Source of the DNA: a virus
Length of the DNA: 64,000 nucleotides
Direction: 5' to 3' (one strand)
Virus record (IMG/VR): IMGVR_UViG_3300009008_000022
Span: 17,459 to 81,458 of that record
The notes beneath the pieces were generated by a model. The model made no database searches. It saw only the letters and a program-made list of their open reading frames with translations, and was not told the DNA's origin. Each line of letters starts with the position of its first letter. Position 1 is the first letter of the stretch. Both the position numbers and the translations under genes were made by a program. Below are positions 9,223 through 55,200 of this stretch, one piece after another.

Positions 9223-9250
9223 CTGTAATTCCCCTTGGTTGTTATAACCC

Positions 9251-9279
9251 ATTATATCACAGATGTTTGCAGCAGTCAA
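9251..9279 (-). promoter_or_regulatory. Sigma70-type promoter (TTGACT-17-TATAAT)
   Basis: On the minus strand, -35 TTGACT is at 9274-9279 and a perfect -10 TATAAT at 9251-9256 with a 17-base spacer, in the short gap between two leftward genes. Transcription would start about 9244 and give the zincin gene a leader of about 22 bases containing its ribosome-binding site. Confidence 0.8.
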
Positions 9280-9299
9280 ATGCACGGTGCAGCGCCTTG

Positions 9300-9590: not shown

Positions 9591-9599
9591 GGTGCCTCC

Positions 9600-35486: not shown

Positions 35487-35655
35487 ACCGCCACCGGTTG
35501 CCCCTGCCACGCCTGGCGAGCCCACCTGGCACAAGTGCACAGCCTGTGGGGGGCTGACCCTGGACCCGCGGCCTGGCACCTACTCCTGCCCCCGATGCGA
35601 CGGTACAATGGCAGAGGTGCCCGAGGATGAGATCAACCCGCAAGCTGCCGAATAA
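35464..35655 (+). CDS. Zinc-ribbon protein preceding terminase
   Basis: A 63 aa protein with a GTG start. CTACGGLTL and CPRCDGT (zinc ribbon), acidic end, Pro-rich N-terminus. Its 3' end overlaps the terminase start by 29 bases. It may be a terminase accessory by position only. Confidence 0.55.
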   Translation: MRQQPVYRPPPVAPATPGEPTWHKCTACGGLTLDPRPGTYSCPRCDGTMAEVPEDEINPQAAE

Positions 35656-37393
35656 CTGCCTACGCAGGCACGATCCACCGGTACGCACGCCCGTTGTGGG
35701 CGGCCAAGTCCAGCGGTCGCTCAAGGACGTAATCAGCGAGATCAAGGATCAGGGCGAGCTGCAATCTTCGCTCACGTCCGCCACAACTCAGGCCGCGCTG
35801 CATGAGCACATGCTCGTGGCGAGCTGCGCTTACTTCGCAGAGGCGACGATCAGCGGTCCTAACGAGGAGCCTTACAACGGCCGGTTTCTAATCGCAAAGC
35901 ACCACCTGGCATGGGATGAGGCGCTGCTCAGCAACAAGAAGCTCTGCATTCAGGCAGCTCGTGACCACGGCAAGAGCCACTTTTGGGCGGTCGCTTTCCC
36001 AATCTGGCTTGGCGGGTGGCGAATGCCTGGCGGCCTGGGCTATATGTTCAGCGCGAGCCAGGAGCTTGCCGAGGAAAAGCTGGAGCTGGTCAAGCGCGAG
36101 ATCAAACAGAACGAGGCGCTGCATTGGCTGATACCCGAGAGCGGTGAGCGGTACTGGTCAAAGCGGGAGATCCGGCTGAGCACCGGAACCATCATCCGAG
36201 CCCGCGGTTGGGGCGTCCGCGTCCGAGGCGGCCACCCTCAGTGGATCATTGCAGACGACGTGTTAGACGACGACTGCTTGTATTCGGAAACCATCCGGCG
36301 CCGGTCGGTTGAGTACTTCTTCAGCGTGCCCGTCAACATGGTGGTGCCGAACGGCTGGCTCGTCGTGGTCGGTACGCCGTTTCACTTCGCGGACCTGTAC
36401 CACAAGATCGCGGAAACCGGGAAATACGCCTGCTTAACTTTTGCCGCCCTGGACGGCGAAGATCCGCTATTCCCGCAGCGGTACAACGCAGCTCGCTTGC
36501 AGGACAAACGAGAGGAGATCGGAGAGATCCGGTTTGCTCGCGAGTTTCTGTGCCGGCCGCTATCCGATGAGGCGTCCCTGTTTCCGTCGCACCTGTTTGA
36601 AGGTGACGAGGTGCGCGTGCCGTACCGCCTGGGCATGGGCGCGGACCATTGGGAGGAGCGAAACATGCTCCGGTACACCGGCGTTGACCTGGCCTTTTCC
36701 GCCGAGACTGGCGCGGACTACACCGTGATCATCACGATTGCAGTAGACCCGCACGGCAACCGGTGGCTGGCAAACATGCGCAGGGGCCGCGGTTGGGGCT
36801 ATTCCAGGCAGATCCAGGAGATGAAAGAGGAGTACGCGCTCATGCGGCCTGATATGTTCCACATCGAGGCCAATCAGGCTCAGCGCATCCTGGGCGATTC
36901 AATCGCAGCTCAGTCCATTTTGCCCGTCCGGCTTTTCTTCACGGCCGGCGCTCAGCCCAAAAAGCCCTGGACCCGCGGCATGACCAGCATTACCGCAGGC
37001 AAGCACAGCCTGGACCGCGGCGTACCGAGCTTGAGGCTGGCATTCGAGCGCAAGAAGTGGCGGATCCCGCGCGGTGACGCGCACGCCATTGACATGACCG
37101 ACACCTGGATCGCGGAGTTTAATTGCATTGCCTACGAAAACGGCAAGGTTGAGTCCGTGGGCGAGCATGACGATTGCGTGATGGCTACTTGGATGGCGGA
37201 CACCGCAGCTCGCATGGGCGAAGGTGTTACGATGGTATTCGGAGGAGAGGAAGCAGAGCCGGAAAATGTTGATCCAGACGCGCCCGAAGCGGAGGATCTA
37301 GACTACTTCGGGCTAGGTGAGTACGATGCTGGGGAGGAACAACCCCCGCAGTACAACCTGGGAAGCCTGATCGGAGACAGAACAGGAGAGTGA
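35627..37393 (+). CDS. Large terminase subunit (DNA packaging ATPase/nuclease)
   Basis: A 588 aa protein. ATPase: Walker A-like ARDHGKS (111-117), Walker B WIIADD (206-211), coupling VVGTPFH (247-253). Nuclease: YTGVDLAFS (350-358), HIEAN (412-416), EHDDC (513-517), with metal-binding acids. Packages DNA into the prohead and cuts it. Acidic C-terminus. Start at ATG 35627 inside the previous gene. No small subunit is certain; 25628-26335 is a weak candidate. Confidence 0.92.
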   Translation: MRSTRKLPNNCLRRHDPPVRTPVVGGQVQRSLKDVISEIKDQGELQSSLTSATTQAALHEHMLVASCAYFAEATISGPNEEPYNGRFLIAKHHLAWDEALLSNKKLCIQAARDHGKSHFWAVAFPIWLGGWRMPGGLGYMFSASQELAEEKLELVKREIKQNEALHWLIPESGERYWSKREIRLSTGTIIRARGWGVRVRGGHPQWIIADDVLDDDCLYSETIRRRSVEYFFSVPVNMVVPNGWLVVVGTPFHFADLYHKIAETGKYACLTFAALDGEDPLFPQRYNAARLQDKREEIGEIRFAREFLCRPLSDEASLFPSHLFEGDEVRVPYRLGMGADHWEERNMLRYTGVDLAFSAETGADYTVIITIAVDPHGNRWLANMRRGRGWGYSRQIQEMKEEYALMRPDMFHIEANQAQRILGDSIAAQSILPVRLFFTAGAQPKKPWTRGMTSITAGKHSLDRGVPSLRLAFERKKWRIPRGDAHAIDMTDTWIAEFNCIAYENGKVESVGEHDDCVMATWMADTAARMGEGVTMVFGGEEAEPENVDPDAPEAEDLDYFGLGEYDAGEEQPPQYNLGSLIGDRTGE

Positions 37394-38381: not shown

Positions 38382-41300
38382 ATGCCTATTTGGCTAAAAC
38401 AACCGCCGCAGCCCGCGCCGATAATCCAGGCGAACAGCGCCTTGCTCACCATGCGCCAGGCAGAGCGCACGCCACCGGCCAGCCGCGGTGAGTTTGGGAA
38501 CATGAAGCAGGCCAACAGTGTGCGTGACGTGCTGGACGGGCTAGGTCTGGGGATGGATCTTGAGCGCGCCCTGGGCGAGCGCGTTGAGCAATGGCTGGCC
38601 TGTCGTACCCAGGTTGAGATCATGGAGCGCGCACGGCACGATCTGGCCGGAGCTGTGGCGGATCCCTACGTCCGGCGCGAGATCATGGGCCGCGCCATGA
38701 ACCTGTGGCTGCGCACCGTGCAACCGGCCGAGCGGGCGCCGAACCATGGGACCATGATCATCAAGGCCCAGGCTGCGCAGTTCGCACCGGACAACCGGCG
38801 GCGGTGGGGAGGTGGGAAGCCCTACGGCGGGCAACGTCCGCCCTTGAGCCGGACGGTGACAGGACAGCCGAGCGGTGGAGGGTGGGAGGAAGTAAAGAAC
38901 AGCGCCCATGGAGGTTGGCGCAGGCCGGACGGCCGCGGTGGTTACGAATATTGGTATCCAGGGCAGGGCGGCCCCGGTGGCGGCCCTGGGGGAGCTGGGG
39001 GCGAAGCCAAGCCTCACCCGAATGAGGGCCAGGGCAAGGGCGATCCAAAGCCACCTGGCGTAAGGTGGGCACCTGTGCCGCACCATGCGCCGGGAACATT
39101 CCGCCGGCCAGCCGAAGATCATTCCGCGGGCGGGCCAGCTCACGCTTCACGCATGGAGGCGCAAGGGATTGCCTCAGAGCCGCACCGCGGGGCAGCGGAG
39201 GGGGAGAGTCAAGGCAACGAAACCCAGGGCGACAAGCCCGCAGAATCAGGAAAGGACTCCGGCATCCCGCCAGAGCTGCAAGCGCAGCTCGCCCAGGCCA
39301 TTGAAGCCTACGGTATGGACGCGGTGAAAAAGGGGCTGGGGAGCGTGACAGAGGCCGCGGCGAAGGCGGCCGATGAGCAGTACCAGGCCAAGGCCGCGGA
39401 GCTGGGGAAACATGAGACAGTCCAGGCCGCGGTAAAAGAGCACTTCGGCGGCAAGCTGCGCAGCAAGCCGAGCGAGCAAGAGGTTAAACAGCTCGCAAAA
39501 AAGCTGGGCAACGATCCCGAGATCCGCAAGCTGGCTGAAACGGCCATGCAGGGCGCCGATGGTGCGGTGGTGGACGCGATAGCCCAGGCCGCGGTGGACG
39601 CAGCCCCCAAGGCCGATCCTGGCCTGGCTAAAAAGCTCCTGGTAGGCGCCAAGGTCGCAGCCAAGGCAGCTCTGCCGAGCGCGGCGTTTGGTTTCGTGGA
39701 CAACTTCATGCTGTACCTGGCAGGGGCGAGCATTGACACCATGATCGCAGCCATGGGTTTCGGCGCCGCGGTGGTGGCCGGCCTGGGCAACGCAATCAGT
39801 GATTCAGTGGGCGAAGCCGTGGCTGACAAGATGGAGCGTTTCCTCGACAAACTGCCAGGGCTGAAAGAGGACGAGAAGGATGTTCTGACCCCGGAGCAGC
39901 GTCAGAAGATCGAGAGCAAGGCTAAGGTCGCGGGCGTGTTTGTTGGCGCGATCATCGGCATGTGCCCGTTGCTGGTAGGGATCGGGTTTGGGGGAGCGCC
40001 AGCCGCCAAGTCAGAACGGCTGGTATTTGCCGGCGGCCGGTTGCTGCTCAAGAGCGAGCCGGACCCGTTGCCCGCCCTGGACGGAGCGCCCGAGCTGGTG
40101 TTTGTCATGGTGGACACCGAGCCGCGCGACGGCCTGTTTCTGGTCAAGGGAGCGGGGCACAAGTACCTCAGACGGATCCGCAACCCGAGCCCACCGCCCA
40201 ACTGGCGCTATCTGTACAAGTACCCAACCAGGAAGGGTTTGGTACACGACGATCACCTCGTTGAAGGGGCGAAATTCAAGGGCAAACACGGCGACCTGGA
40301 GGGCCACTTTGAAGTAACCGGAGTGGTCAAAAAGAAGGGCAAGCACGTTATCGCGCTGAAGCACGACGAGTCCGGCAAAACGATCTACGTTCACCGCAAG
40401 GACATTCAGGGAATGCTCACCCGCTATCACAAGGATGCGGGCACGCATAAGGAGCCGCGCAAGCGCAAGCCCAGGGCGCCCAGGGCGCCGGCTAAGAGCT
40501 TTCCCGAGCCGGACAAGAGCAAGGCAACCGAGGGCACCTACAGCGGCGAGCTGCCGAAGATCGGGCTCAGGGACACTCACGCATGGGAGGAGATGAAAGG
40601 CTTTGCTGACGATGAGCAAGCCGCGCGGGAATTGCTGGCGAGCTGGGACACGCACGGCCAGGAGTACGGCCTGATACCGCAGCCCAACGGGGTGATGATT
40701 ATGCGCCGGACAGCTCGCACCGGCAGCAAGGCGGTGAAAGAGGGCGCGTCTACCGTGGTGGCGTTCAAGGGCGACGGCAAGATAGAGCGCCAGCAAGGCG
40801 AGTACATGGTCATGGAAATGAGCGAGCTGATCCCGAGCCACAAGCCAGGGAGCTTTGCGCCGGACCCGCGCTACCCCGATGGTGTTCAGGAGCGCGTTTA
40901 CCACGACGATCCAAACGAGCGCGCGAAGGTGGAGGAGATCGCCCGCGGCCTGGATCCTTTTTTCGTGATCAACACCAATAACGACGGCGTTGGAGGGCCG
41001 CCCGTGATCACTCCAGACGGGATCGTGCTAGGCGGCAACGGTCGCACCATGGGGATCATGACGGCATACACGCACTACCCGGAGAGCGGGCAGAAGTACA
41101 AGGATCACCTGGCAAGCCAGGCCAGCGACTTTGGTTTCAGCTCGCATGACATTCAGGGCATGAGCCAGCCGGTGCTAGTGCGGCGCGTGGCGGTGGACGC
41201 GAATAACACGCAGAAGGCTCGCATGTGGGCGCGCGTGCTGAATGAGCCGTTGACGCAGGGCATGGACCCGCGCACCGAGGAAGTTGCGGTCGCGAAGAAC

Positions 41301-42332
41301 CACATGAACGAGCGCGTGATCGCCGCCCTGGTGGCCGGCATGAAAGAGGGCGAGACAATCCACGCCTTTTTGAGCGGGGCACATAGCCGTGAGTTTGTGG
41401 ACGGGTTGAAGCTGGCCGGCATCATCGACCGGTACAACGAAAGCAAGTATCGCCACGTTGACGCCACGGCCGGAGCTGACAAGCAAGGGCTGCTTAACGA
41501 GGAAGGGATCATGAGGATCCAGCGCGTGCTAATCGCCTCGCTTATCCCTGATTCTCGGCTGCTCAAGCGTATGCCGAAAAACATGATCACAGCTCTGGCC
41601 GGCAGCGTGCCGCACCTGTACCGCGCCCAGGCCGCCGGTTGGGATCTGTCCGGCGCGCTGGCCGCGGCGGCGGACGCCTGGCTTGACGCGAAACACCGGG
41701 AGTACAAGACAGCCGCCGCCTACCTCAAGGCCACCGAAATGGACTACGGCGACGGCGATAACAAGATGGCGCCGTTGATGAAAGATCAGGCCGCGGAGTT
41801 TATGTTTCGGATCCTGTTCAAACCGCAGGCCACCGCGACGGCCACAAAGATGCGCGAGCTGGCAAACCGCGCGGGAATGGCGAAGCAAGCCCGAGAGGAG
41901 CAGGACAGCGGCGGCATGTTTGCCATGCTGGGCGAAACCGCGGACGCGCCAGAGCCGGAGAAGTTGACCGACGCGCTTGATACGATCTGGGGTATCACGG
42001 CAGAGGGGCGCGGCCGGCGCCAGGCGGAAAAGGACGCGGCCAGGGCGGAACAGCTCAAGGCGTACCAGGCGCGAGCCGATGAAATGGGAATGCACGTCGA
42101 GCAGTACGAGGCTTACCAGGATTGGGCCGCGGAGGACAAGAAGTGGCAGGACCGGCAGAACAAGCGCAAGCGCAAGGCGCGCAAGCCGGACCCGAGGCCG
42201 GAGAAGCCGCCGATCATCCAAGGGCTGAGAGTGGGACACCGGGAGCACAACATGGGGCTATTCCGCGAGCACGATGCGAAGCGACGGCGCGAGCAGATGA
42301 AAGACGACAGCCGGGAGCGGGAGGCAAGTTAA
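38382..42332 (+). CDS. Polyvalent protein: WYP module, TMEM65-like, ddrB-type ParB
   Basis: A 1316 aa protein, ATG with GGAGAAGG upstream. N-terminal helical domain to about 125, WYP module (164-196, GGWRRPDGRGGYEYWYPG), Gly/Pro linker, helical stretch (300-420). Residues about 433-538 match TMEM65: FGFVDN, GASIDTMI, GLGNAISDSVG and VGAIIGMCPLLVG, two membrane hairpins. A degenerate module at 592-620 (HKYLRRIRN...WRYLYKYP). Residues 805-950 are ddrB-type ParB (IPSHKPG, IVLGGNGRTM at 882-891), then its helical extension. Charged C-terminus. DdrB/ParB domains in injected virion proteins are thought to protect or process DNA. The membrane domain could aid DNA entry; this is inference. TAATG overlap with the next gene. 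Confidence 0.75.
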   Translation: MPIWLKQPPQPAPIIQANSALLTMRQAERTPPASRGEFGNMKQANSVRDVLDGLGLGMDLERALGERVEQWLACRTQVEIMERARHDLAGAVADPYVRREIMGRAMNLWLRTVQPAERAPNHGTMIIKAQAAQFAPDNRRRWGGGKPYGGQRPPLSRTVTGQPSGGGWEEVKNSAHGGWRRPDGRGGYEYWYPGQGGPGGGPGGAGGEAKPHPNEGQGKGDPKPPGVRWAPVPHHAPGTFRRPAEDHSAGGPAHASRMEAQGIASEPHRGAAEGESQGNETQGDKPAESGKDSGIPPELQAQLAQAIEAYGMDAVKKGLGSVTEAAAKAADEQYQAKAAELGKHETVQAAVKEHFGGKLRSKPSEQEVKQLAKKLGNDPEIRKLAETAMQGADGAVVDAIAQAAVDAAPKADPGLAKKLLVGAKVAAKAALPSAAFGFVDNFMLYLAGASIDTMIAAMGFGAAVVAGLGNAISDSVGEAVADKMERFLDKLPGLKEDEKDVLTPEQRQKIESKAKVAGVFVGAIIGMCPLLVGIGFGGAPAAKSERLVFAGGRLLLKSEPDPLPALDGAPELVFVMVDTEPRDGLFLVKGAGHKYLRRIRNPSPPPNWRYLYKYPTRKGLVHDDHLVEGAKFKGKHGDLEGHFEVTGVVKKKGKHVIALKHDESGKTIYVHRKDIQGMLTRYHKDAGTHKEPRKRKPRAPRAPAKSFPEPDKSKATEGTYSGELPKIGLRDTHAWEEMKGFADDEQAARELLASWDTHGQEYGLIPQPNGVMIMRRTARTGSKAVKEGASTVVAFKGDGKIERQQGEYMVMEMSELIPSHKPGSFAPDPRYPDGVQERVYHDDPNERAKVEEIARGLDPFFVINTNNDGVGGPPVITPDGIVLGGNGRTMGIMTAYTHYPESGQKYKDHLASQASDFGFSSHDIQGMSQPVLVRRVAVDANNTQKARMWARVLNEPLTQGMDPRTEEVAVAKNHMNERVIAALVAGMKEGETIHAFLSGAHSREFVDGLKLAGIIDRYNESKYRHVDATAGADKQGLLNEEGIMRIQRVLIASLIPDSRLLKRMPKNMITALAGSVPHLYRAQAAGWDLSGALAAAADAWLDAKHREYKTAAAYLKATEMDYGDGDNKMAPLMKDQAAEFMFRILFKPQATATATKMRELANRAGMAKQAREEQDSGGMFAMLGETADAPEPEKLTDALDTIWGITAEGRGRRQAEKDAARAEQLKAYQARADEMGMHVEQYEAYQDWAAEDKKWQDRQNKRKRKARKPDPRPEKPPIIQGLRVGHREHNMGLFREHDAKRRREQMKDDSREREAS

Positions 42333-44725
42333 TGGCGAAGGCAGAGAAGAAGGGCGCCGCCGCGGCCGGAGTCCGGTACGTCATGGACTGCCTGCTGGTG
42401 GAGGCCAAATTCGAGGTACAAGGGGCGGTGCACCTGTCCATGATTAAGGACCGGAGCGTGAGCGTTAAAACCTCAGAGATCGTCGCGCGCCTCAAGAAGT
42501 TCGCCCAGGCCAAGCTGGAGCTGGACCCGCGGTTTCGCGCCGGTTGGGGCAGCTCGCCAGTGACCGATGAGCAGCTACACGCAATCGTCGGGCCGTTGGT
42601 TGAAATGCGGGCCGGAAAGATCGTCAAGGGCGGTGAGCGGATCTGGTGCCAGGGAGGGCCAGCTCCGCGCCCTTTCGTTAAGGGCGAGCGGCCGTCCGGC
42701 GCAGGCTGGCAGGCCGTACCAAATACCAAATTTGGCGGGTACAGGCGCCGCGGCAAGGGCGGCAAGTGGGAGTATTGGTATCCCGAAAAGCACGCCAAGT
42801 TGGGCCATGGGTTTGAAGCTGAGCATGTGGAGCTGCGCGAAAAGCGCGACCGCGTTGCGGCCGACATAGAGCGCCGCGGCCTGGGGGTGGAGTACGAAAC
42901 GAGCCCAGGCCGGTATCTGGTTGTCATGCCGGACCCGTCGCACGCGGGCAAGGTCCGCACGCAGAGCTACGATGAGCACGGATTCTCTGGGCACCGCACC
43001 TATGACGATCTGCCAGCTCTGGCCGCGGACGTTGCCAAGTGGGAGTACAACGGGATCAAGCCAGCTCAGGCCGGCACGCTAGACAAGCTCGCCCAGGGCG
43101 AGCCATGGCGCCAGGCCGCCCTTCACCAGCAAGCGTTAAGGGAGATCGAAAGCCTGGAGAGGCAGGGGCAGGACGTGAGCGAGCTACACGCGGTCCTAGC
43201 TCGCAAAGGGTCAGAGGCGCTACTGGCGCACCTGGGCAAGTCGGAGGCGCCGCGGTTGCTCGCCCTGGGCGACCGGTTGGTCAAGGCTGGCGTTGGAGCG
43301 GAGCGGCAACAGATCATGTTTGCAGCTCGCCAGCGCAAGCAGTACCCGCCAGGTTACAAGCCGGAGCACAAGGTCAAGGGAAAGACGGTCAAGGTCCACA
43401 CTAACGGCTGGCAGGCTATCCCCAAGGGGCACAAGGGAGGCTATCGGCGCCGGACCCGCGGCGGGTGGGAGTACTGGTATCCAGACCATCACGCGCGGCC
43501 TGGGCTACACGCACCGAGCGTGGAGCCGCACGGCGGCACGTTGGCCGAAGCGGTGGAGCTGCGCGAAAAGCACGGCGTGCCGATCCATGTAAGCTGTGGC
43601 GCTGGGGTGGACAGTACCGGTTTGCTGGTAGGCATGTATCAGCAGGGGATCCGGCCGGATGCGGTTGTGTTTGCGGACGTGGGGAACGAAAACCCGCGCA
43701 CTTATATGTTCCTTCCCCACCTGGACGCATGGCTGAGATCGGTTGGCTTCCCGCCCCTAACCGTGGTGCGAAACAAGCCGACCGTTAGCGCCTCAGAAAT
43801 GGTGAGAGAGGCGCGCGGAAAGACTTACGCCACGTTGGAACAGAACGTGGTGCTGCATGAAACCCTGCCGTCAATCTCACTGGCCGGTGGCCGCGGTTGC
43901 AGCCAGAAGTGGAAACACCAGCCTCAAGAAGCCTGGGCAAACCAGCGCGAGGATTGCCAGTCGGCATGGGAGCAGGGCTTCAAGGTCACGAAGCTAATCG
44001 GCTACAGCTCTGACCCGGCGGACAAGCGCCGGCCGGATATGCCGGACGATGAGAAGTATCACTATCAGTACCCGTTGCGTGAATGGGGGTGGGATCGGGA
44101 GCGGTGCAAGAAAGAGATCGCCGCGGCCGGTATGCCCGTACCAGTCAAGAGCGCGTGCTGGTTTTGCACAGCGACCAAGCCGCACGAGCTGCGCCGCATA
44201 GTGAGCGAGTACCCCGACATCGGCCGCCGGATAATCCAGATGGAGGCCGCCGCGGAGGACAACCTACGCAAGATCCGCGGCCTGTGGGGCACACCGGTGA
44301 AGGGGGCCAGGGGCGCGCTAAAGAAGCCGGGAACAATGGCAGAGTGGATCATCGGGGAGGAGTTGCTGCCGGAGTTTAAGGGCCAGGATATTGTTGACCC
44401 GTGGTGGCGCCAATCAGGCCAGGTGACGCCCGGTAACGAGCACTTCAAGGTGGCGGACGTGATGCACCTTGTAGACGCGCCACCGCCGCCGGTGAGCCCG
44501 CTTGAGGATCTAAGCGGCCTGGCTCCGGTGGACACCGACGAGCTGCGCGAGCAGAGCAAGGCGCGAAAGCGAGGTGGTGCGGTTCAGACCAGCTTGTTTA
44601 AGAGCGCGCCCAGGGCGACGATGAGGGACGGAGATCAAAAGTTCTGGGCAGCCATGGCATTGATCCAGGCGTTTGATCAATTCGACAGCATGGGCAAGGA
44701 CGGCAAGCGGCATGGATCTGAATGA
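42332..44725 (+). CDS. Polyvalent protein with PP-loop (PAPS-reductase-like) domain
   Basis: A 797 aa protein. N-terminal unknown domain (1-115), WYP module (about 123-160, WEYWYPEKHAK), helical region, second WYP module (358-394), then a PP-loop ATP pyrophosphatase domain: SCGAGVDSTG (421-430), CSQKWKHQP, DKRRPDMPDDE, YPLREWGWD and CWFC (609-612). This resembles phosphoadenosine phosphosulphate reductase and DndC-type ATPases. Cys pairs may hold an Fe-S or zinc. It ends with QTSLF (44585-44599), the sliding-clamp consensus. Substrate is unknown; DNA sulphur modification or a nucleotide-activating step is possible. Confidence 0.75.
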   Translation: MAKAEKKGAAAAGVRYVMDCLLVEAKFEVQGAVHLSMIKDRSVSVKTSEIVARLKKFAQAKLELDPRFRAGWGSSPVTDEQLHAIVGPLVEMRAGKIVKGGERIWCQGGPAPRPFVKGERPSGAGWQAVPNTKFGGYRRRGKGGKWEYWYPEKHAKLGHGFEAEHVELREKRDRVAADIERRGLGVEYETSPGRYLVVMPDPSHAGKVRTQSYDEHGFSGHRTYDDLPALAADVAKWEYNGIKPAQAGTLDKLAQGEPWRQAALHQQALREIESLERQGQDVSELHAVLARKGSEALLAHLGKSEAPRLLALGDRLVKAGVGAERQQIMFAARQRKQYPPGYKPEHKVKGKTVKVHTNGWQAIPKGHKGGYRRRTRGGWEYWYPDHHARPGLHAPSVEPHGGTLAEAVELREKHGVPIHVSCGAGVDSTGLLVGMYQQGIRPDAVVFADVGNENPRTYMFLPHLDAWLRSVGFPPLTVVRNKPTVSASEMVREARGKTYATLEQNVVLHETLPSISLAGGRGCSQKWKHQPQEAWANQREDCQSAWEQGFKVTKLIGYSSDPADKRRPDMPDDEKYHYQYPLREWGWDRERCKKEIAAAGMPVPVKSACWFCTATKPHELRRIVSEYPDIGRRIIQMEAAAEDNLRKIRGLWGTPVKGARGALKKPGTMAEWIIGEELLPEFKGQDIVDPWWRQSGQVTPGNEHFKVADVMHLVDAPPPPVSPLEDLSGLAPVDTDELREQSKARKRGGAVQTSLFKSAPRATMRDGDQKFWAAMALIQAFDQFDSMGKDGKRHGSE

Positions 44726-47700
44726 CCTGTTACAGCGAGGGTTGAGAAAGGCGGAACAGCTCGATCTGTTTGGGCCGGAGCAACTAACCTCAGACAGAGG
44801 GCCACGAGACACCGTGAAGCCGGCCACGCCGCGCCGAGTTGGTAAGCCAGGCCGCGGCAAGCGCCGCAAGAGCAAGCGCGTTATACCGCCGCACCAGGGC
44901 CACATGACGCCACCTGGCAAGGGTTGGCAGGCTATCCCGCGGGGCAAGAAGGGCGGTTTCAGACGCAAGGGCAGCAACGGCAAGTGGGAGTACTGGTATC
45001 CCAACAGGGGAATCACTCCCAGCCCGCACCATAAAGACATTCCCGACAGGCCCGATCCGGCGAAGGATCCGAAGGGCGCGCTGGCATGGTGGGGGATGCG
45101 CCTTTATGAAGGCACCGTCAACGACGAGGGGTTTTGGCAGGACCACCGGAGGACAACCGGAGCCAGGCCGCGGGTTTACAGCTTGAGTTGGGATTATGGC
45201 CGAATGAGCCTGGCCCTGTTTGATGCAGTCGAGGGCATACCTCAACAGCAAAGGGCCGCCATTTTGGAGCCGACGCGGGAGCGAGCGCACTTCCCCCGCG
45301 ATCAGTTCACCGACATGGCCGAAAGCTATCGCCGGTTGGAGGAATACCAAGTCGCGGTGCGATTGAATGCCGAGCGCCGGCCGGCCGCCCCCGTCGAGGA
45401 CGTTGACGCCGCGGTGGACAGCCTGCAAGGGGTGGAGCCGGAGTCCGCCCAGGGCGCCGACGTGCCGCACCTGGAAGTTGAGGAGTACGACGGCCGCGAG
45501 GGCGATCCAAACCACCTTACGCGCAAGGAAACCGGCCGCGTAACGCCGCAAAGCCTGGCTCACTTAAAGGGGGCCAGGAAAGAGCACGGCTACATGCGCT
45601 GGCACGACGGCAGCGCCATTGGAGCGAAGGATCCAGGGGAATACTTCGGCAGATATACCAGGGAAAAGTGGGAGGCGTTTGTTGCCGACATTAAAGCGCG
45701 CGGCGTTCAGGATCCGGTTTTCATCGTTAGGAACCCAGAGCCAGGCACGCGGCACGATCCGGCTGGAACGTGGGTGTATGAGGGCAATCACCGCATAGCC
45801 GCGGCATTGGAGGCGGGGGTTAAAACGATCCCGGTAGAGATCCGCTACTTCGGCCACACTGAGCGCGACGGCCAGGCTGCGCCAGGGTGGGATCGTATGC
45901 CCGAGAGTGAGCCCGCCCAGGGCGAGCCACACGAGCCGGGGCCGGATACGTTTCACGGCAAACTTACGGCGCTACGGGCCGAGGCTGAAAGGCTGGACTT
46001 GCCCACGGCCGCCAGGCTGCTTAACCCGGAAGGCTGGCCCACGGACGATGAGAAGTTGGGCAGCGTGCTAATGGACGCCACCGCGGAGCTGGGCGGGTTG
46101 CTAGTAGGGGAGGATACGCCGGACAACCGCCGCCGCCGTGAGCTGCTAATCGAGGGGATCAAGGTCTGGACCAAGGATGGCGAGTACGAGCCGATCACGT
46201 CCCTGCATACCAGCCGCGAGGATCTTCAACGGCTGGGGTTTAGGACCATTGCCAAGTTCACTGATCTGAAAAAGCTGGGCTACCGTATCGTTCAGTGGGC
46301 GCGCGTGGTGGGCGAGGTGTACGGCGACAACAAGGACATGGCCGGTTGGGAGATCGTTCACGAGTATGACCCGATGCACCCCGACGCGGGCAGCGGCGCA
46401 GGGCTGGCCGGCAAGCGTGATCACAAGACGGGTGACGGGTTGGGCTATTGGGAGGCTCCAGCGCCCGGTGATGCGCCAGGGATGAGCCCCGAGGCGGTGC
46501 GCTACACGGCGCCGGCCGGACCCGCGACAAGCAAGGTCCATGAGCTGTTGACGGGGGAAGCTACGCGCTTGACGTTGCCAGGCGTAGACATGAAGGGCAC
46601 CAGCGTGCGCAAGCGCGGTGTTAATCCGGCCGATGCAATGGACCGCGGAAGGGCAGAGCGGGACAAGGCCAGGCGGGCGCAGACCAGCCTGGGGTTTGAC
46701 TACTCCGGCGACAGCCCGCACCACCAGGCAGAGCGCGCCAGGGAGCTTAGTATGGGGGCGGCCTGGGCGATCCTTAACCCGGATTTTGAACATACCTCGA
46801 CCGACGTTAAGCGCGTCCGGCAGCAGCTCGCAGATGATGCGGTTGAGCTGGCGAAGCTACAGGCCAGCGAGCCGGATAGCGAGGCAACGCGCGAGCTGGC
46901 TGAAATGCAGAAGCTCCGGCGGGCCGCGTTGCGCACGGTGAAGCCCAAAGGCAAGCGAGCCGCGGCGCTGACAGCTCGTGGGGAGAGTAAAAAAAAAGAT
47001 CCGGCCGCCGGGATTTATGAGCGGGTAGCCCAGGCATCGGGAAGTTCCGCAGCTTGGATGGTGCAAAGCAAGGCCCGCGAGGTTGCTCATATGCAGCCTG
47101 GCGACCACTTTATGAAGCCAGGCGGGATTTACGCGACCGCGGCCAAGATCACGTCAACCCATGTGATCGATACCCTGGGCAAAAAGCACACGCTGGCGTC
47201 CCTGTTTGGGCTGAAGCTGAAGGATAAGGATCTGGTAACGCTGGCCCTGGCGGAAGGCGCCAAAGAGCCGCCGCCCAAGCGCGGACCAAACCCGGATTGG
47301 GTAGCCGGCTGGGAGCGCATGAAGCCAGGCGACAGCTTCACCTTGCCAGCCGATCCGCGAGGGCTGAGCTACCACGGGCCAGTGTTGGCCGGAGCGCGCG
47401 AGTACAAGGTTACAAGGCGGGTGGGAGATCGGACCTTTGAGGTGGAATTTCAGCACCCGGAAGGGCCAATAACCGAGGCCGAAGCCAGGGCGGCGCATGT
47501 AGACCACAAGGGGCGCCCGCGCGGGAACAGCGGCCTGGCCTACCATGGGCAGAAGTTCCGAGCTGAGATCAGCCGTTACCATGATGGATCGTGGGGCGTT
47601 GATCTCCTCGACCCTAACCCCACGTCTTACATTTCAGCTCACCCGGACGGCGGTGGAGCGGCGCCCACTGAGCAGAACAATGGAGGGCACGAGGGGATCG

Positions 47701-49601
47701 AAGTGGACCCGGTGATTCATCATCGGTCGGCGCCGATGCTGCGCGCCATGGCCGGACAGAAGGCCAAAATGCCGGAGCCGGGAAGCATCACCGTCAACCT
47801 GGCAGAGCTGGCGAAGAAAACCGGAGCAGACTACCACGACAACCTAACCCTGGCGGCCAGCGTTGCTCAGGCTTTCTTGACGGGTAGCGACAACCTGCCC
47901 GTGATCCTGCCGATGCTGATTAAGCATGTGAAAAAGGATCAGGCCGCGATTGATGAAGGCCGGGAGAAGTGGGACAGCCTGCCCGCGGCGCTCAAATACG
48001 ACTACGCCAAGATGGCAGAGTTGCACGAGCGGCGCCGATCCGTACTGGATCAGGTTGAACCAGGGTGGGACCGTATGCCGGACAGCGAGGGCGGCGAAAG
48101 CCCTGGCGACAAGATGATGCGCATGACGCGCGAGGGTCCGAAGCTCACCGCGGAGGGGCTGTCTCCCGGCGGGCCGGAGCCAGCGCCGGCCGAGGTGGAG
48201 GCGAAACGCAAGGCGCTGCTAGACCGCGCGAAGGATCTGGAGCGGCGCTCTGACAGAGAGTTTGAGCAGGCGCGCGGCATAATCCAGCACCATACCGGGC
48301 AGCCTATCCAGGCGAGCGGGCACCATTCCAGGGGCCGGCACATGCGCGAGCTGGAGCGGCACGACGAGAAAGCCGCCCGAGCAATTCGGACGCAGAAGCA
48401 GGCCGAAGCTCTACGCGCCCGCGCTGAGCGGGTGGAGGATGAGCTGCGCGGTGCGCGCAAGGCGTCCGCCGGCAAGCCGGAGGCCAGCGGCGACAGATGG
48501 ATCCGCCTGGGCGAAGGGACCACGCGCCGGCAAGCCATGCGGGCAGCTCGCAAGGGCGACTTTGGACCGCCGGTGGGCAGGCAGGTTCAAAACGCGATCT
48601 GCATTGCCCTGGACGTAAACGGCCGGTGGTGGGTTGGGGAGCGCGGCACCTTGGAGGGCGGCAGCTCCGGCGGACACCCGCTTAGGCTTATCGCCTATAC
48701 AACGCCGAAGAAGGGCGCGAAGTGGGAGCCCACGGTGGGCAAGTATTCCGCCCGATCAATGGACGAGGCAGAGGAAACCGCCCGCAGTTATTTTGCCAGC
48801 CTGGCAGACGGCACCCGAGAGGTGACGATACCGGACAGCGACAAGATCAATCAGCCGCCGATAGACCTGGAGCACGACGGGTGGACCGCGGAGTCATGGC
48901 AGGCGTTCCGCCAGGGCGAGCTGGACGGCCAAGCCGAAGCGAAGCGGAAAGCAGAGGCAGAGCGCCAGGCCAGGGTTGAGGCGCAGGAGCGGCGAGAGGC
49001 CGAGGCAAGAGCCAAGCGCGAAGCGGAGGTTAAAAAGCGACAGCAGGAACAGGAGCGCAAGCGCCAGAAGCGGGTTGAGTCCGGCAAGCCAGCGCGGGCA
49101 TTGTGGGAGGGATTGCAGCCTGGCGATAAGTTCCAGTTTCCCCCCATGGGCGCCTATGGGGACTATGACCCGCACGTTTACGTTGTGAAAGCGGTGGGCC
49201 GAAGTGAGATAAGCGGGGAGCCGGAGATCGTTATCCGGCGGCACCGCGCCCGTAAAACCATGACGGCCACGATGGATGAGTTTGGGCATGTTTCCGCCAT
49301 TCCCGAGGGAAAGCAGAGCTGGCTGAGCCGAAGCCTGGGCAGGCCGGAGCCGTTTGAAAAGCCGAAGCCCGAGCCGGCCGGCACCATGGGGCCAGGCGCG
49401 CACCCTTACACCGCGGAGCTGCAAGCCAAACTGAAAGAGCTGGAGGCAATCTATCAAAAGCACAAGATCAAGGGGCCGAAGGCCGACCGCGTTATGGCGG
49501 CGTTTCGCGAGGTGGTGGTGGAGGTGTCTAACCTTCCGGCCGACGCGGACGTGGGCACGGCCAACAGCTTTTCCACACGAGCCCCGCGGTCCAGGGCGTA
49601 A
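44712..49601 (+). CDS. Polyvalent protein with ParB-like domain and PGDxF repeats
   Basis: A 1629 aa protein, ATG at 44712 overlapping the previous stop by 14 bases. N-terminal helix with QLDLF (44757-44771), WYP module (about 67-108), then a helical part. Residues 321-383 look ParB/Srx-like (VQDPVFIVRN, YEGNHRIAAA, IPVEIRYFG). Middle contains QTSLGF (46680-46697), a hexameric clamp-type peptide. Three PGD[HSK]F repeats (about 47089, 47317, 49111) mark repeated small beta domains. PGWDRMP[ED]SE occurs twice (about 45888 and 48063). A long Arg/Glu coiled coil (48930-49080) precedes the last repeat. Ends with a TAA in frame with the next gene. Confidence 0.65.
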   Translation: MDLNDLLQRGLRKAEQLDLFGPEQLTSDRGPRDTVKPATPRRVGKPGRGKRRKSKRVIPPHQGHMTPPGKGWQAIPRGKKGGFRRKGSNGKWEYWYPNRGITPSPHHKDIPDRPDPAKDPKGALAWWGMRLYEGTVNDEGFWQDHRRTTGARPRVYSLSWDYGRMSLALFDAVEGIPQQQRAAILEPTRERAHFPRDQFTDMAESYRRLEEYQVAVRLNAERRPAAPVEDVDAAVDSLQGVEPESAQGADVPHLEVEEYDGREGDPNHLTRKETGRVTPQSLAHLKGARKEHGYMRWHDGSAIGAKDPGEYFGRYTREKWEAFVADIKARGVQDPVFIVRNPEPGTRHDPAGTWVYEGNHRIAAALEAGVKTIPVEIRYFGHTERDGQAAPGWDRMPESEPAQGEPHEPGPDTFHGKLTALRAEAERLDLPTAARLLNPEGWPTDDEKLGSVLMDATAELGGLLVGEDTPDNRRRRELLIEGIKVWTKDGEYEPITSLHTSREDLQRLGFRTIAKFTDLKKLGYRIVQWARVVGEVYGDNKDMAGWEIVHEYDPMHPDAGSGAGLAGKRDHKTGDGLGYWEAPAPGDAPGMSPEAVRYTAPAGPATSKVHELLTGEATRLTLPGVDMKGTSVRKRGVNPADAMDRGRAERDKARRAQTSLGFDYSGDSPHHQAERARELSMGAAWAILNPDFEHTSTDVKRVRQQLADDAVELAKLQASEPDSEATRELAEMQKLRRAALRTVKPKGKRAAALTARGESKKKDPAAGIYERVAQASGSSAAWMVQSKAREVAHMQPGDHFMKPGGIYATAAKITSTHVIDTLGKKHTLASLFGLKLKDKDLVTLALAEGAKEPPPKRGPNPDWVAGWERMKPGDSFTLPADPRGLSYHGPVLAGAREYKVTRRVGDRTFEVEFQHPEGPITEAEARAAHVDHKGRPRGNSGLAYHGQKFRAEISRYHDGSWGVDLLDPNPTSYISAHPDGGGAAPTEQNNGGHEGIEVDPVIHHRSAPMLRAMAGQKAKMPEPGSITVNLAELAKKTGADYHDNLTLAASVAQAFLTGSDNLPVILPMLIKHVKKDQAAIDEGREKWDSLPAALKYDYAKMAELHERRRSVLDQVEPGWDRMPDSEGGESPGDKMMRMTREGPKLTAEGLSPGGPEPAPAEVEAKRKALLDRAKDLERRSDREFEQARGIIQHHTGQPIQASGHHSRGRHMRELERHDEKAARAIRTQKQAEALRARAERVEDELRGARKASAGKPEASGDRWIRLGEGTTRRQAMRAARKGDFGPPVGRQVQNAICIALDVNGRWWVGERGTLEGGSSGGHPLRLIAYTTPKKGAKWEPTVGKYSARSMDEAEETARSYFASLADGTREVTIPDSDKINQPPIDLEHDGWTAESWQAFRQGELDGQAEAKRKAEAERQARVEAQERREAEARAKREAEVKKRQQEQERKRQKRVESGKPARALWEGLQPGDKFQFPPMGAYGDYDPHVYVVKAVGRSEISGEPEIVIRRHRARKTMTATMDEFGHVSAIPEGKQSWLSRSLGRPEPFEKPKPEPAGTMGPGAHPYTAELQAKLKELEAIYQKHKIKGPKADRVMAAFREVVVEVSNLPADADVGTANSFSTRAPRSRA

Positions 49602-49628: not shown

Positions 49629-52205
49629 ATGCGCGAGCTGGCGCAGCGGCGCACGGCCGCCAAGCGCAAGGCGGCGAAGAAAGCGGCGGCGCAACGGGAG
49701 GTAGAAGGCAAGGCCACCGAGGGCACCGCGCCCGCGGAGCTGGAGAGCACCGAGCCGTCCGAGTTGATGCGCAAGCCTGCTTACAAGGCGGCGCTGGACC
49801 TTCACGAGCATGTTAGCGAGCGGCGTATCCTCGACAGCTACACGATAGAGGACTATCCGATCTCCCGGCACCACCGCGGCGCGGTCAAGGTGTGGGTACA
49901 GCACCGGCCAGGCTACGGATGGCGCCTCATGCGGCAAACCTCGAAACCCTACGGAGGGTGGGCCAAGCCGAAAAATTGGGGCACCTACTCCCACAGCCCG
50001 ATTTACATCGTGGAGCCCAAGCCAGGATCCGATGAGCGCGGGATCGTGCTGCGCATACACGAGGAGTGGCACGCTGGCGCTACGCTGAGCACCATCACGG
50101 GCACACAGGTTATGGGCTGGTCAAACGACGACAGGGGAGGCAGCAACGACAATTCGCCCGACGTGAAGCTCGCCCACGAGATCAACGCCCTGGCGCGGTC
50201 CAGGCGCGTGGCCGAAGCGGCAGAGGTGGCGCCGGAGCAGGTAGCAGCTCAACAGGCAGAGAACCAGGAGCGCGCTATCGAGGCCGTAACCAGCAAGTTT
50301 GAGCGCGGCCTGGCGGAAGCGCGTCACCGGTTGGATCAGGTGCGCGGCACGGCAGACCCGAACCGGTTGGGCAGCCAGAAACGCCGGAGCTACGAAACGG
50401 CGTTGAGGATCCTGTCAGACTACGGCGTTGACTCCAGCACGGGCGAGATCAGCTCATGGGGCAAGTTGGGCAAGTGGGCCGCCAAGCTCGCCAGGTGGAC
50501 ACCGGACGCGCCCGCGCTGCCGGATAACGTCAACGCGCCCGCCCAGGGCGACCGGCCGAAAACCGGACCCGAGCGCATGGCAGAGCTGAAACGGATGCAG
50601 GATAACAAGCCCACGCCGCGGTTGACGCCGCACCAGCGGGCCATGGGCCAGTTCAATACGCCGCACCCGATTGCCTATCGCATGGCAGAGCTGGCCGGCG
50701 TGAAGGGAAAGACGGTGCTGGACCCGACCGCGGGAGAGGGCCGGCTGTTGCAGTACGCGCGTGAGCAAGGCGCGGACAAGGCGCACGGGTTTGAGATCGA
50801 CAGCAGCTTGACCGACTACGCCAGCCAGCACGGCGTATTGCACGCCGATTTTATGAGCGTGCCAGCGGCCAAAAACCAGGCGGACGTGGTGCTGCTAAAC
50901 CCGCCGTTTACGACTCGCGGCGGGCCGGATACCGCGGGGATCATGCGCAAGGCGCTGCATGATTGCTGGACCGGCGAAGGCCGCGCGGTGGTACTTCTGC
51001 CGGCTGGCCCGAGCGGGGAGAAGTTGATCGCGCCGTACCGCGATATGGTGGTAGATGAACATGATCTAGCTGACGATGCGTTCAGGCGCGAGGGAACTAG
51101 CGTGCGGTCCAGGCTGTATGTGCTGGAGAAGGAATCAACCGCCAAGTCCGAGCGGCTGATCTTGGAGGGCGAGCCGATGGAAAAATGGGATGGCTACCTA
51201 CTTCACAAGGGGCAGCGCCGGCCACCTGGCGCCGGCTGGCAGCCTGCACCCCACAGCAAAAAGGGCTACTGGCGAAAGCGTGGCCCTGGCAACCGTTGGG
51301 TGTACTGGAATCCAGCTCACGGCGTGCACCAGGAAGGCGGCGACCTGTTTAACCGCGGTGGTACAGAGGAAGTGGGCCGGCTGAAGCCAGAGGATAGCCA
51401 GCGCGAGGCAGAGCACCACGAGGCCATGACCGAGGTTATCCAGGCGCGCGAGCTGGCGAAGCGGACCAAGGCCAGGTTTGGCAACGGCAGCCACAGTGAG
51501 CGGGTAGCCGCGGCCCTGTCGCGTGGGGATCACGAGGCGGTGACGCGCACGCATAGCGCGGAGGCGGCGCACGCTACCACCACGGCAGAGCTGGACAAGA
51601 TTAAGGGCCAGATCGCGCGGAGCCGGGACATACACCGGATCCACGAGCTGCAAGACAAAGCACGGCGGATAGCCGCGGCCGGAACGGCGCTCATGCACCA
51701 CTACGAAACCCGCCAGGCCAGCCTGTTTGACGAGGACACTTCGATCCCCGAGGTGAAGCGGCTGAGCCGCGCGGAGCTGCATGATCATTCCGAGTCGTTG
51801 ATGGAGATTGAGCGGGCTGCGCAGCGCCACCACCGCAAGGGCAACGAGGACCAGGCCACCGCGGAGATCCGGCGTTTGGCCGATGCAAAAGACAAGCTCA
51901 AGGCAGAACTGCCGAAAGGTGAGTTTCAGAAGGTTCTGGATCGGTTTCAGGAAACCGTAGCGCGCGAGCAGCGCGAGCGGTGGAAGCGGCAACGCGAAGC
52001 CGGCAAGGGCAAGCGCAAGAAGGCGCCGCCGGTGGCGGACATGAGCCAGTCGAGCCTGGCCCTGGGCGGCAAGGGAGACAAGGGCGGCCAGCGCGAGGCG
52101 AAGTTGGAGCACGGCGGAAAGAAGCCGAAGCAAGCCAGGGCAACCCAGGGCAGCCTGTTCACCGATGGCGACCTGGGCGGCACCGGCCGGTTGCCGGGGT
52201 TTTAA
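49629..52205 (+). CDS. Polyvalent protein with N6-adenine DNA methylase
   Basis: An 858 aa protein. Its frame is that of the upstream gene, separated only by TAA at 49599-49601; nine sense codons precede the ATG and no strong ribosome site exists. Basic helical N-terminus, then a beta domain (70-150). The methylase domain is about 340-510: QFNTPHPIAYRMAEL, DPTAGEG (364-370), LLNPPF (422-427). A WYP variant (WVYWNPAHGVHQ) ends near residue 570. Clamp-like peptides QASLF (51714), QSSLAL (52047) and QGSLF (52146) lie in the C-terminal coiled-coil. Likely methylates adenines in the phage DNA. Confidence 0.7.
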   Translation: MRELAQRRTAAKRKAAKKAAAQREVEGKATEGTAPAELESTEPSELMRKPAYKAALDLHEHVSERRILDSYTIEDYPISRHHRGAVKVWVQHRPGYGWRLMRQTSKPYGGWAKPKNWGTYSHSPIYIVEPKPGSDERGIVLRIHEEWHAGATLSTITGTQVMGWSNDDRGGSNDNSPDVKLAHEINALARSRRVAEAAEVAPEQVAAQQAENQERAIEAVTSKFERGLAEARHRLDQVRGTADPNRLGSQKRRSYETALRILSDYGVDSSTGEISSWGKLGKWAAKLARWTPDAPALPDNVNAPAQGDRPKTGPERMAELKRMQDNKPTPRLTPHQRAMGQFNTPHPIAYRMAELAGVKGKTVLDPTAGEGRLLQYAREQGADKAHGFEIDSSLTDYASQHGVLHADFMSVPAAKNQADVVLLNPPFTTRGGPDTAGIMRKALHDCWTGEGRAVVLLPAGPSGEKLIAPYRDMVVDEHDLADDAFRREGTSVRSRLYVLEKESTAKSERLILEGEPMEKWDGYLLHKGQRRPPGAGWQPAPHSKKGYWRKRGPGNRWVYWNPAHGVHQEGGDLFNRGGTEEVGRLKPEDSQREAEHHEAMTEVIQARELAKRTKARFGNGSHSERVAAALSRGDHEAVTRTHSAEAAHATTTAELDKIKGQIARSRDIHRIHELQDKARRIAAAGTALMHHYETRQASLFDEDTSIPEVKRLSRAELHDHSESLMEIERAAQRHHRKGNEDQATAEIRRLADAKDKLKAELPKGEFQKVLDRFQETVAREQRERWKRQREAGKGKRKKAPPVADMSQSSLALGGKGDKGGQREAKLEHGGKKPKQARATQGSLFTDGDLGGTGRLPGF

Positions 52206-55200
52206 GTGGGCCAGCAACAGCAACTTGGATTTGACTTTGGCGGCGAAAAAAAGCGCGTCAAGGTACTGAGCGCAGGCGGCGGCCTTGACTCCTGGGCAAT
52301 GTGGCTCAGGGCCAAGGCGCGCGGGGAGCTGCCGGATCTGGTTATTTTTGCGGACGTGGGAGATCCCGAGGGCAAGCACCCCGCGGAGTGGCCGAGCACC
52401 TACCAGCACTTGAGGGAGGTATTCCGGCCGGATGTTGAGGCGCAAGGCGTTGAGTTTAAGTGGCTGACCGCCGAGGACATACCCGTTCGATCCCACCGAA
52501 AGAGCTGCAAGAGTTGCGGGGAGCAGCACCCGGAGGGGTTTGACAGCCTGTATGCCTATCTCCGGCACATGCGAAACCTGCCAACTGGCTCGTCAAAAAT
52601 GTGCACCAGCGCGGGCAAGGTGGAGCGGATCGGCCAGTGGGTTGAGGACCGATACCCCGACGTAGACGAGATCGAAATGTGGATCGGGTACGGCGCAGAG
52701 GAAACCGGCCGCCTGAAGAAAAACAGGTACGCCCAGGGCCAGGGGCGGCGCGTCAACCGATACCCGTTGATTGAAGAAAAGCTCTGTCGGGAAAAAGAGC
52801 TGGTGATTGCCATGGCGAGCGGGCACCCCGTGCCGCGCAAGAGCGCGTGCGTTTACTGCCCGATGAGCAGCCGCGGTGACTTTCTCACGCTGCTTAAAGA
52901 GCAGCCCAAGATGTTCCAAATGACGCTGGACATGGAGGAAAACTCAAAGCTAACCGAAGCCCGACGCAAGCGATTGCGCTACTCCGGCACCGGCGAGCAT
53001 ATGCCGAACTTGCTTGAGTGGGTCACGAACACCGGCCGGTACGAATTTACGCCAACCGGACGCCGGACCAAGCCGTATATCTCCAGCCGAGACAAAGAGG
53101 ATTGCCCCTGTTGCGGGAACAAGAAAGCCAGCAAGGCGACAGGCTCAGACTACGCGCACGCTGGCACCGGCCGCGAGATCCCGGTTGACGTTACAGAGCT
53201 GGACGCGCCAGGGCACGTCATTGCGATCCATGTGGACAAAAAGACAGGCGAGCCATACGTCGATCACAAGCTCAATATCCCTTACATGGAGGAAGCCCAC
53301 GGCCCGATCACGCCGGAAACGCCGATCATAAACTACGGAACCAAGCCGATAGTGGGCCTGGAAACCACGTTTACGCCCCACATCCTGTACGTTGGCCCAC
53401 GGGGCGGCCGGTGGGCAGACCCGAAACACCGGATACATTGGGATCCGAAGGTGCACGGAACGGTGACAAGTCAAACCAGGCGGATAAAGAAAGCCGAGGT
53501 GATGCTCAAGGGCGGCAAGTTTCCAATCGGGACAATCCGCACCTGGCGGGACGGCAAGCGGTATAGAAAGGTCAGAGAGGGCCAGTGGCAAGAGGTAGCG
53601 CCAGCTCGCCAGGCACAGCAGCTCGATCTGTTTGCGGCCATGGATTCGCGCGTTACCGAAAAGGACCGCGAGCCGATTTGCAGCCGGCCGCCGCCGGTCA
53701 GTGTGCCACCGGAGATCAAAGACGCCCTGGACCGCGGCGGATACCTGATTATCAACAGCTCCGGCGGCAAGGACTCGCACGCGCTGACCTACGCCCTGGC
53801 GACCTGTCCCGAGCTGGCGGCCTACAAGGACCGCATGATCGTCTATCACGCGGACCTGGGCAGGGCCGAGTGGCCGGGAGCTGGTGCCAAGGCAGAGGAG
53901 ATCGCCAAGCAGTTCGGGTTGCCGTTCGTGAAGGTCAAGCGGGACGCGAGTATCAACCGGGAGACAGGCAAGCGGGAGGTGTGGGAAGGCGACATGCTAA
54001 CCCACATGGAGGAGCGGGCAGCCTGGCCTAGCATGACAACGCGAATTTGCACGTCCGCCTTAAAGACAGGCCCGATCTGGAAAGCCCTACGGCGCCGGTT
54101 TTCCAAGGAAGGCGTGCCGATTGTTTCCGCCCTGGGCGTGAGAAGGCAAGAGGGCGAAGGCGACAAGGTAAACGCGGGCAGCCGGTGGTTTGCAGAGGAG
54201 TGGCACCAGGGCGGCGACTTTGGAACAAAATCAGTCAAGGAGCCGGTGCGCCTTGAGGTGCGCGAGGTATCTCACGAGCTGGCGCCCTGGCCTAGCCCGA
54301 GCAAAAAGGATCTCCGCGCGGTGAAGCGGGGGACAGTAAACCGGTCTGTCAAGCGGGAAGCCTACGAATGGAATCCCCTTGTGGATTGGGATCTGTCGCA
54401 CGTTTGGGGGGCCACGCGCGAGTCCGGCGTGGATCGGCATTACGCCTACGATCTGGGGTCCAGCCGGTTGAGCTGCTTGTGGTGTCCGTTGTCCAGCCAG
54501 GCGGACAAGGTAGCCGCAGCCAAGGCCCACCCGGAGATATTGCGCCAGTGGCTTGACGCTGAGAACAAAATGCGCGCCACGCATGAGCAGCGCCGAGGAT
54601 TTTGGGCAGAGCACATAGACCGCGGCCAGGTTGAGGGCGGCATGGAAGTAACAGAGCCGAAAGACGGCGGTGTGCCCCTGTATGCGTTCGACGCGGCCAG
54701 AATGAGCCAGGCCGAGATCGTGGATATGAAGCGCAACGGGGGGAAGTACAGCAAGAAGCGCGGGACCGTCGAGATCCCCAAGCGATACCTCAAGCCGTTT
54801 CTGGAGTACGGCACGAAGGGCAACCAGGGCGAGAGCTTGCTTGCCTTAATGGCCCGGTTAGGCGTCACGCTGGAGAAGGCAGCCAGCGATCCGGCATTCG
54901 TGCGAGAGTTGGTCAAGCGAGCACGCGAGCACGGCCGCCAGATGGACCGCTACCAGCTCGCAGTCGAGCGGGTGATAGAGGTTAAGGACCGCGTTGCAAG
55001 GGCCAACGGCGCCACCAGAGAGCGCCTGTTGCGGCTGTATCAGCGGGAGATGGATCAGCTTGCCGGCATTGGCGCGCAGCTCAAGGGCTCGCACCCGTTC
55101 CCCTCGTCCGGCGAGGGCATAGCCAGGGAGCAGGCCGCGCGTAAGTCGCTGCTGGACCGCGGCCAGGCCGTAGCAGCTCGCATGGAGGAACGGATGGAGA

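Follow-up and report, generated by a model that had tools for sequence, protein, structure and literature searches.

The window analyzed here is a 64,000-nucleotide stretch of viral DNA corresponding to bases 17459-81458 of an 81,458-base IMG/VR virus record. On its plus strand, two genes downstream of the large terminase gene (35627..37393; phrog_38, E 5.6e-54), lies a coding sequence for a 1316-residue protein, which reads as an open frame from the ATG at 38382 to the stop at 42332 (38382..42332), with an alternative GTG start at 38349 that would add 11 residues. The protein is organized, in order, into an N-terminal part, a GG...YWYP motif, an alanine-rich helical stretch, a TMEM65 domain (PF10507; 39666..39974, plus strand, residues 429-531), a middle part, a DdrB-type ParB domain (PF18763; 40785..41189, plus strand, residues 802-936), and a basic C terminus. 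Pfam matches to PT-VENN and SseC in the same protein fell below the cut-off and were set aside.

Five large genes, several of which overlap or abut, follow on the plus strand and together with the TMEM65 gene form a cassette of six. The first is an SspD/PAPS-reductase-like gene (42329..44725), whose ATG overlaps the TMEM65 stop codon, followed by a gene with ParB-like and DUF3560 domains (44715..49601; domain scans were made on the protein as read from 44673), an N6-methylase-like gene with an NPPF motif (49629..52205; Pfam match below the cut-off), a PAPS-reductase/SspD-like gene (52206..57104), and a gene for a strawberry-notch-type helicase (57101..63727; AAA_34, E 8.1e-14; Helicase_C_4, E 4e-11), the class that is joined to methylases in DarB. 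NCBIfam yielded no match for six proteins searched. The occurrence of two SspD/PAPS-reductase-like genes (42329-44725 and 52206-57104) in a single Dar-like cassette may point to a connection with sulfur-based modification of DNA or with its evasion.

Another feature of the cassette (38382-63727) is a recurrent motif of the form GG(Y/W/F)(R)RR..GG.(W/Y)EYWYP, which reads GG(R)RR..GG.YEYWYP in the 1316-residue protein, with YWYP at 38949..38960 (plus strand, residue 190). Strict YWYP is found in four of the six proteins, twice in the product of the 42329 gene and once in that of the 44715 gene; the 52206 gene has a degenerate YYYP, and the motif is absent from the 49629 gene. YWYP was also observed in large proteins on the terminase contigs of three of four related loci (L135, L136, and L138). 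A phage search with one 39-residue copy as the query gave no match at E 1 or less, and the literature searched contained no relevant report on this motif, which is a sequence-based candidate for a shared packaging or processing tag.

TMEM65 domain of the 1316-residue protein

The first-pass annotation had proposed, without a database search, that residues 433-538 (39678-39995) resemble TMEM65, a mitochondrial inner-membrane protein, and had placed a ddrB-ParB domain downstream. The coordinates and the open frame were borne out, and the proposal proved right on both domains: PF10507 matched residues 429-531 with 59.5 bits (E 3.6e-16; curated cut-off, 25 bits), covering profile positions 2-106 of 109, and PF18763 matched residues 802-936 with 75.9 bits (cut-off, 27.6; E 3.8e-21). 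When all six frames of the 81,458-base record were searched, TMEM65 was located at a single place, the frame of the 1316-residue protein. An independent profile built from seven homologs (four cellular and three phage sequences), with the window copy left out, scored 51.9 bits (E 1e-14) on the protein, whereas none of 2300 shuffles, 2000 made from the domain and 300 from the complete protein, scored above 12.5 bits, so that the match is not an effect of composition; 47 of the lines reported with E values up to 10 were shuffles. Collectively, the sequence comparisons make a solid case for residues 429-531 being a TMEM65-family domain.

The characteristic motifs GFVDN, AGLGNAISD, and VGAIIGMCPLL start at residues 437, 466, and 521, respectively. 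An alignment of 34 rows, selected among the recovered loci, has ten invariant columns (G, D, N, A, G, G, N, S, D, G), corresponding to GxxDN, AGxGNxxSD, and the glycine positions of helix 3, and all ten are kept in the window copy. Several of these are polar residues inside predicted helices, and, according to PMC13254257, purified mammalian TMEM65 forms homodimers and, in liposomes, is reported to carry out Na+/Ca2+ exchange. Because the invariant polar residues survive in a relative of a reported exchanger, a working transporter might be injected by the phage, namely, a cation (Na+/Ca2+) exchanger or channel delivered into the host membrane with the DNA that would change ion gradients during entry or exclude later phages, with the ParB domain as a separate passenger. 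Although we consider it unlikely, such a retention of ion exchange is the chief alternative to the membrane insertion model developed below; the near-invariant cysteine of helix 3 is replaced by alanine in the window copy, which argues against it.

Predicted structure and hydropathy

AlphaFold2 modeling of residues 405-548 with the 34-row alignment yielded three long helices (mean pLDDT 90.0, pTM 0.77): helix 1 at residues 414-457 (39621..39752), which contains GFVDN; helix 2 at residues 462-490 (39765..39851), which contains AGLGNAISD; and helix 3 at residues 504-535 (39891..39986), which contains VGAIIGMCPLL, all on the plus strand. The hydropathy values of the three segments are 1.25, 1.76, and 2.39, such that two of the three pass the usual threshold of 1.6 and the first falls under it, being the lowest among the 34 homolog rows scored. 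When the six large cassette proteins were scanned with a 19-residue mean, peaks of at least 1.3 were found only in the 1316-residue protein, both of them within the TMEM65 domain (1.76 and 2.39). The helix 3 peak, the highest, exceeds the 99.8% quantile (2.25) of 500 shuffles. The charges flanking the domain (+5/-2 on the N-terminal side and +4/-2 on the C-terminal side) leave its orientation undecided.

The low hydrophobicity of helix 1 counts against insertion in a membrane and is compatible with the helices serving assembly, as a glycine-rich bundle for self-association or docking on the head or portal that would never enter a bilayer. The membrane regions of T7 gp16 have been reported to be globular in the capsid (PMC8954989), and the homodimers of TMEM65 (PMC13254257) also fit such a role. 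Nevertheless, the strongly hydrophobic helix 3 and the solo relatives of the domain, which comprise hardly more than first and third helices of membrane-like character, speak against it, and we regard an assembly function as distinctly improbable. The weakness of helix 1 is common to the three long versions found (see below), in which this segment scores 1.25-1.44 vs. 1.82-2.47 in four cellular and four jumbo-phage solo copies; the values of 23 small solo copies (1.40-2.07) overlap slightly with those of the long versions, of which there are only three. A weak helix 1 in the long versions would agree with a need for the protein to remain soluble inside a capsid.

PDB sequences searched with a 14-row profile gave no domain match; the lowest E value, 6.4e-4, belonged to chain FD15, with 38 of 106 positions aligned and no stretch passing alone. 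A Foldseek search of the PDB with the domain model returned nothing under E 5. VIA-align comparison with 203 chains gave a Z score of 7.0 for aquaporin-3 (rmsd 5.7 over 107 residues) and 4.3 for a formate channel, a range common for helical models, and we claim no fold kinship to either. Among viral models (BFVD), the top match was a 94-residue protein (probability 1.00, TM-score to target 0.83, 35% identity), with an E value of only 0.03. The same search listed proteins of giant viruses, Heterosigma akashiwo virus 01 and Mimivirus LCMiAC01 (A0A1C9C5H2 and A0A481YZV9), with probability 1.00 but weak E values of 0.18 and 0.83.

Distribution and phylogeny of TMEM65 domains

Aquatic phages commonly encode TMEM65 as a solo protein of ~90 residues, whereas the domain is rare in the bacterial genomes sampled. 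An IMG/VR scan with a solo copy recovered 63 loci; in a second scan, with a mixed alignment as the query, 93 candidates came up and 38 were confirmed, a set that overlaps the 63. The resulting family of ~90-residue TMEM65-like phage proteins is large and mostly marine (L002, L003-L065, and L084-L127). Its members are annotated as hypothetical and, in one record, as an amidase; Pfam showed no amidase match in the three solo copies scanned. PF10507 scored 26.5 and 27.8 bits on two of these copies, over the cut-off of 25, and 22.4 bits, under it, on the third. An extended form was seen in four loci (L086-L089), where the solo protein carries a C-terminal extension and measures 222 residues in three and 220 in one. 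In the uncultured phage LR756500, a 120-residue solo ORF, linked to one of the long versions (L075) by tblastn, is out of reach of the Pfam profile.

The neighbors of the solo genes, 10 of 142 listed neighbor proteins having been scanned, include early autographivirus genes, tRNAs, SbcCD-like genes, a tail sheath stabilizer, and terminase; a general role as holins was rejected, the neighbors being varied and not lysis genes. The presence of solo proteins in so many contexts suggests an activity of their own, which favors retained transport in the window copy. Yet the solo copies, with their scores of only 22-28 bits, lack most of the loop between the second and third transmembrane segments (TM2-TM3), which weighs on the other side.

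Cellular copies were found in four metagenome-assembled genomes in a collection scan. Among 398 genomes of one phylum, the sole TMEM65 match was the starting genome, and scans of 150 genomes from another class and of 4 from an order likewise gave one match each. A plasmid search with a single cellular solo copy as the query found no TMEM65.

A 38-row tree divides the family in two, one clade (support 96/96) consisting of 27 small solo phage proteins of ~90 residues and the other comprising the three long versions together with the solo copies of jumbo phages and the copies from cells. Within the latter clade, the window copy groups with the full-length type (95/86); its terminal branch is the longest in the tree (3.83), and because of this branch its exact place is unsure. 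The divergence argues against a working exchanger and fits the possibility that a TMEM65 gene was captured by a rapidly evolving polyvalent protein and is now neutral or in decay there, as does the failure to find a sister phage with the same fusion. Such decay appears highly unlikely, given that all ten invariant columns and the open frame were kept despite the strong divergence.

Beyond the small solo type, TMEM65 was found in only three longer chains, namely, the 1316-residue window protein, L074 (568 residues), and L075 (284 residues). A single origin of the three is compatible with the tree topology (p-AU 0.144). A stretch of ~280 residues aligns between L074 and L075 at 34% identity (E 1e-47), and in both of these homologous proteins the TMEM65 domain is C-terminal; they scored 21.4 and 21.0 bits with Pfam, under the cut-off, and 28.5 and 23.4 bits in the genome search, which placed L074 over it. 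Both contigs carry genes that, judged by eye, are tail-sheath-like. The start of the L075 protein, MQNILPYSEYNILLEE, resembles that of T4 IPII/IPIII, MKTYQEFIAE, and N-terminal sequences of this type have been reported to target T4 proteins into the capsid and to be cleaved (PMC9026906). On the L074 contig, five genes (3741-9812) encode a common N terminus, M(A)RLSxQL...EA; the one directly behind the TMEM65 gene starts with MRLSEQLTEA and the four others are closely similar, whereas the TMEM65 protein itself lacks this start. Going by these resemblances, the N termini of L075 and of the L074-contig proteins may be capsid-targeting-like sequences. Each of the five M(A)RLSxQL N termini contains LxE, a possible prohead-protease cut. 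Whole-protein and domain scans of IMG/VR revealed no second fusion of TMEM65 with DdrB-ParB, and no TMEM65 motif was present in the listed ORFs of the terminase relatives L135-L138 (41-42% identity).

DdrB-type ParB domain and the Dar-like cassette

For the DdrB-type ParB domain, tblastn gave matches in 33 phage records, including P1 DdrB. DdrB-ParB polyvalent proteins have been described beside late genes, with injection inferred (Iyer et al. 2017, PMC5512222), and this late-gene setting recurs in the window, with terminase upstream and the methylase-like and strawberry-notch helicase genes further on. P1 DdrB has been detected as a head protein (PMC9024508), and Dar proteins were reported to be ejected together with the DNA (PMC12810830). 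Given the Dar-like cassette behind terminase and the known head location of P1 DdrB, the context lends good support to a role of the window protein in protecting DNA after ejection from the virion.

Hydrophobic segments are infrequent in such proteins. A hydropathy peak of at least 1.6 was found in 2 of 11 phage DdrB-ParB proteins examined from the 33 matched records (P1 DdrB included), those of Pseudoalteromonas phage Y7, where the peak is Gly/Ala-rich and precedes the ParB domain (residues 225-243), and of Shewanella phage Y11, where it lies near the C terminus; TMEM65 motifs are absent from both segments. The Y7 protein (L146, 126-14153) is a giant, DarB-like protein. With few peaks and no TMEM65 motifs among the others, the window protein is unusual among DdrB-ParB proteins. 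Conversely, since P1 DdrB and eight of the ten others have no peak of at least 1.6, a membrane domain is not usually needed by DdrB-type proteins, which counts against the insertion model given below.

Possible function in DNA entry

The reading that we favor, to which we would give roughly an even chance, is that the window protein is a virion-packaged, ejected DdrB-type anti-restriction (polyvalent) protein with a TMEM65 module that inserts in the host inner membrane. The protein would be packaged in the head and ejected with the DNA through the tail, whereupon the three TMEM65 helices would insert into the inner membrane. Because the number of helices is odd, the parts before and after the module would come to lie on opposite membrane faces; in the simplest useful layout, the N-terminal part would be outside or in the tail channel, and the ParB part would be in the cytoplasm beside the incoming DNA, anchored or translocated by the module, as in T7 gp16. 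We infer packaging, ejection, insertion, and orientation, and a benefit to DNA entry or protection; the domain may help the DNA cross the inner membrane or anchor it there, as the first-pass annotation had proposed.

The insertion model draws support from the strong TMEM65 match, the confident three-helix model, the position of the domain between the N-terminal part and ParB, the Dar-like context, and the second long-protein lineage, L074/L075, with its C-terminal TMEM65 domain and capsid-targeting-like sequences. A further precedent is a type VI secretion system (T6SS) DNase, which was reported to need a glycine zipper to pass the cytoplasmic membrane of the target (PMC10240207). Several observations count against it in addition to the weak helix 1. 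Mammalian TMEM65 is reported to have its N terminus in the matrix and its C terminus outside (PMC13254257), the opposite of the N-out/C-in layout proposed here, and no recognized packaging signal was found at the N terminus of the 1316-residue protein. Furthermore, if the domain were a simple anchor, the conservation of the polar D-N and N..SD residues would go unexplained.

The presence of TMEM65 in phages is not itself new, PF10507 being noted in the GenBank record of Vibrio phage 2.275.O (AUS02913.1). In the published literature searched, we found nothing on phage TMEM65, and the fusion of TMEM65 to an ejected Dar-type anti-restriction protein appears to be new within the searches made. A broader and more tentative proposal, which we hold to be doubtful, is that phages inject an anti-restriction protein acting on DNA to which a ready-made TMEM65-type module, for cation exchange or membrane translocation, is fused, and that TMEM65 is a largely viral membrane family among prokaryotes. 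If true, the mitochondrial calcium exchanger and phage-entry proteins would share one ancient module. A defined membrane module of 100 residues in a protein of this kind would make the passage of giant ejected proteins, DarB and DdrB among them, through the inner membrane testable by deletion and fusion. The findings also tie the mitochondrial Na+/Ca2+ exchanger, the prokaryotic relatives of which are hardly described in the literature searched, to a broad set of phage proteins, the small members of which (about 84-95 residues) might offer a simple way to study the structure and transport of TMEM65.

Comparison with known systems

The window copy shares with mitochondrial inner-membrane TMEM65 a domain-wide profile match, the conserved motifs in the same order, three predicted helices, and a full-length TM2-TM3 loop, but differs in its location inside a 1316-residue phage protein, with no mitochondrial context, in the less hydrophobic helix 1, and in the substitution of the near-invariant cysteine. 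The 94-residue solo copies of Pelagibacter phage HTVC109P (AXN54069.1) and Vibrio phage 2.275.O (AUS02913.1) belong to the same domain family; unlike the window copy, they are not fused to a packaged protein and have tRNAs, early genes, SbcCD-like, tail, or terminase genes as neighbors.

P1 DdrB/Dar and the window have in common the DdrB-type ParB domain and an operon beside head or packaging genes with methylase-like and helicase proteins. However, P1 DdrB (995 residues), in which no hydropathy peak of at least 1.6 is found, has ~25% similarity to the window protein over 22% of the protein. P1 DdrB is also said to carry a C-terminal metallopeptidase (PMC5512222), whereas HExxH, the zincin metallopeptidase motif, is absent from the window protein, although one is present in the product of the neighboring 49629 gene. 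Lacking HExxH, the window protein is not a plain P1 DdrB ortholog; it shares the ParB domain with it. More generally, it resembles the polyvalent proteins described by Iyer et al. 2017 (PMC5512222) in being large, multidomain, and late, with the hub domain DdrB-ParB; the terms "transmembrane" and "TMEM65" have 0 occurrences in the main text of that paper, which names no such domain.

In its presumed mode of action, the window protein can be compared with T7 gp16, an analogy of function for which we claim no sequence homology. According to PMC8954989, T7 gp16 has ~1318 residues, is soluble in isolation, and inserts into the membrane with a periplasmic N terminus and a DNA-binding C terminus in the cytoplasm, thus combining, as the 1316-residue protein would, membrane regions in a soluble virion protein with a DNA-binding C-terminal part.
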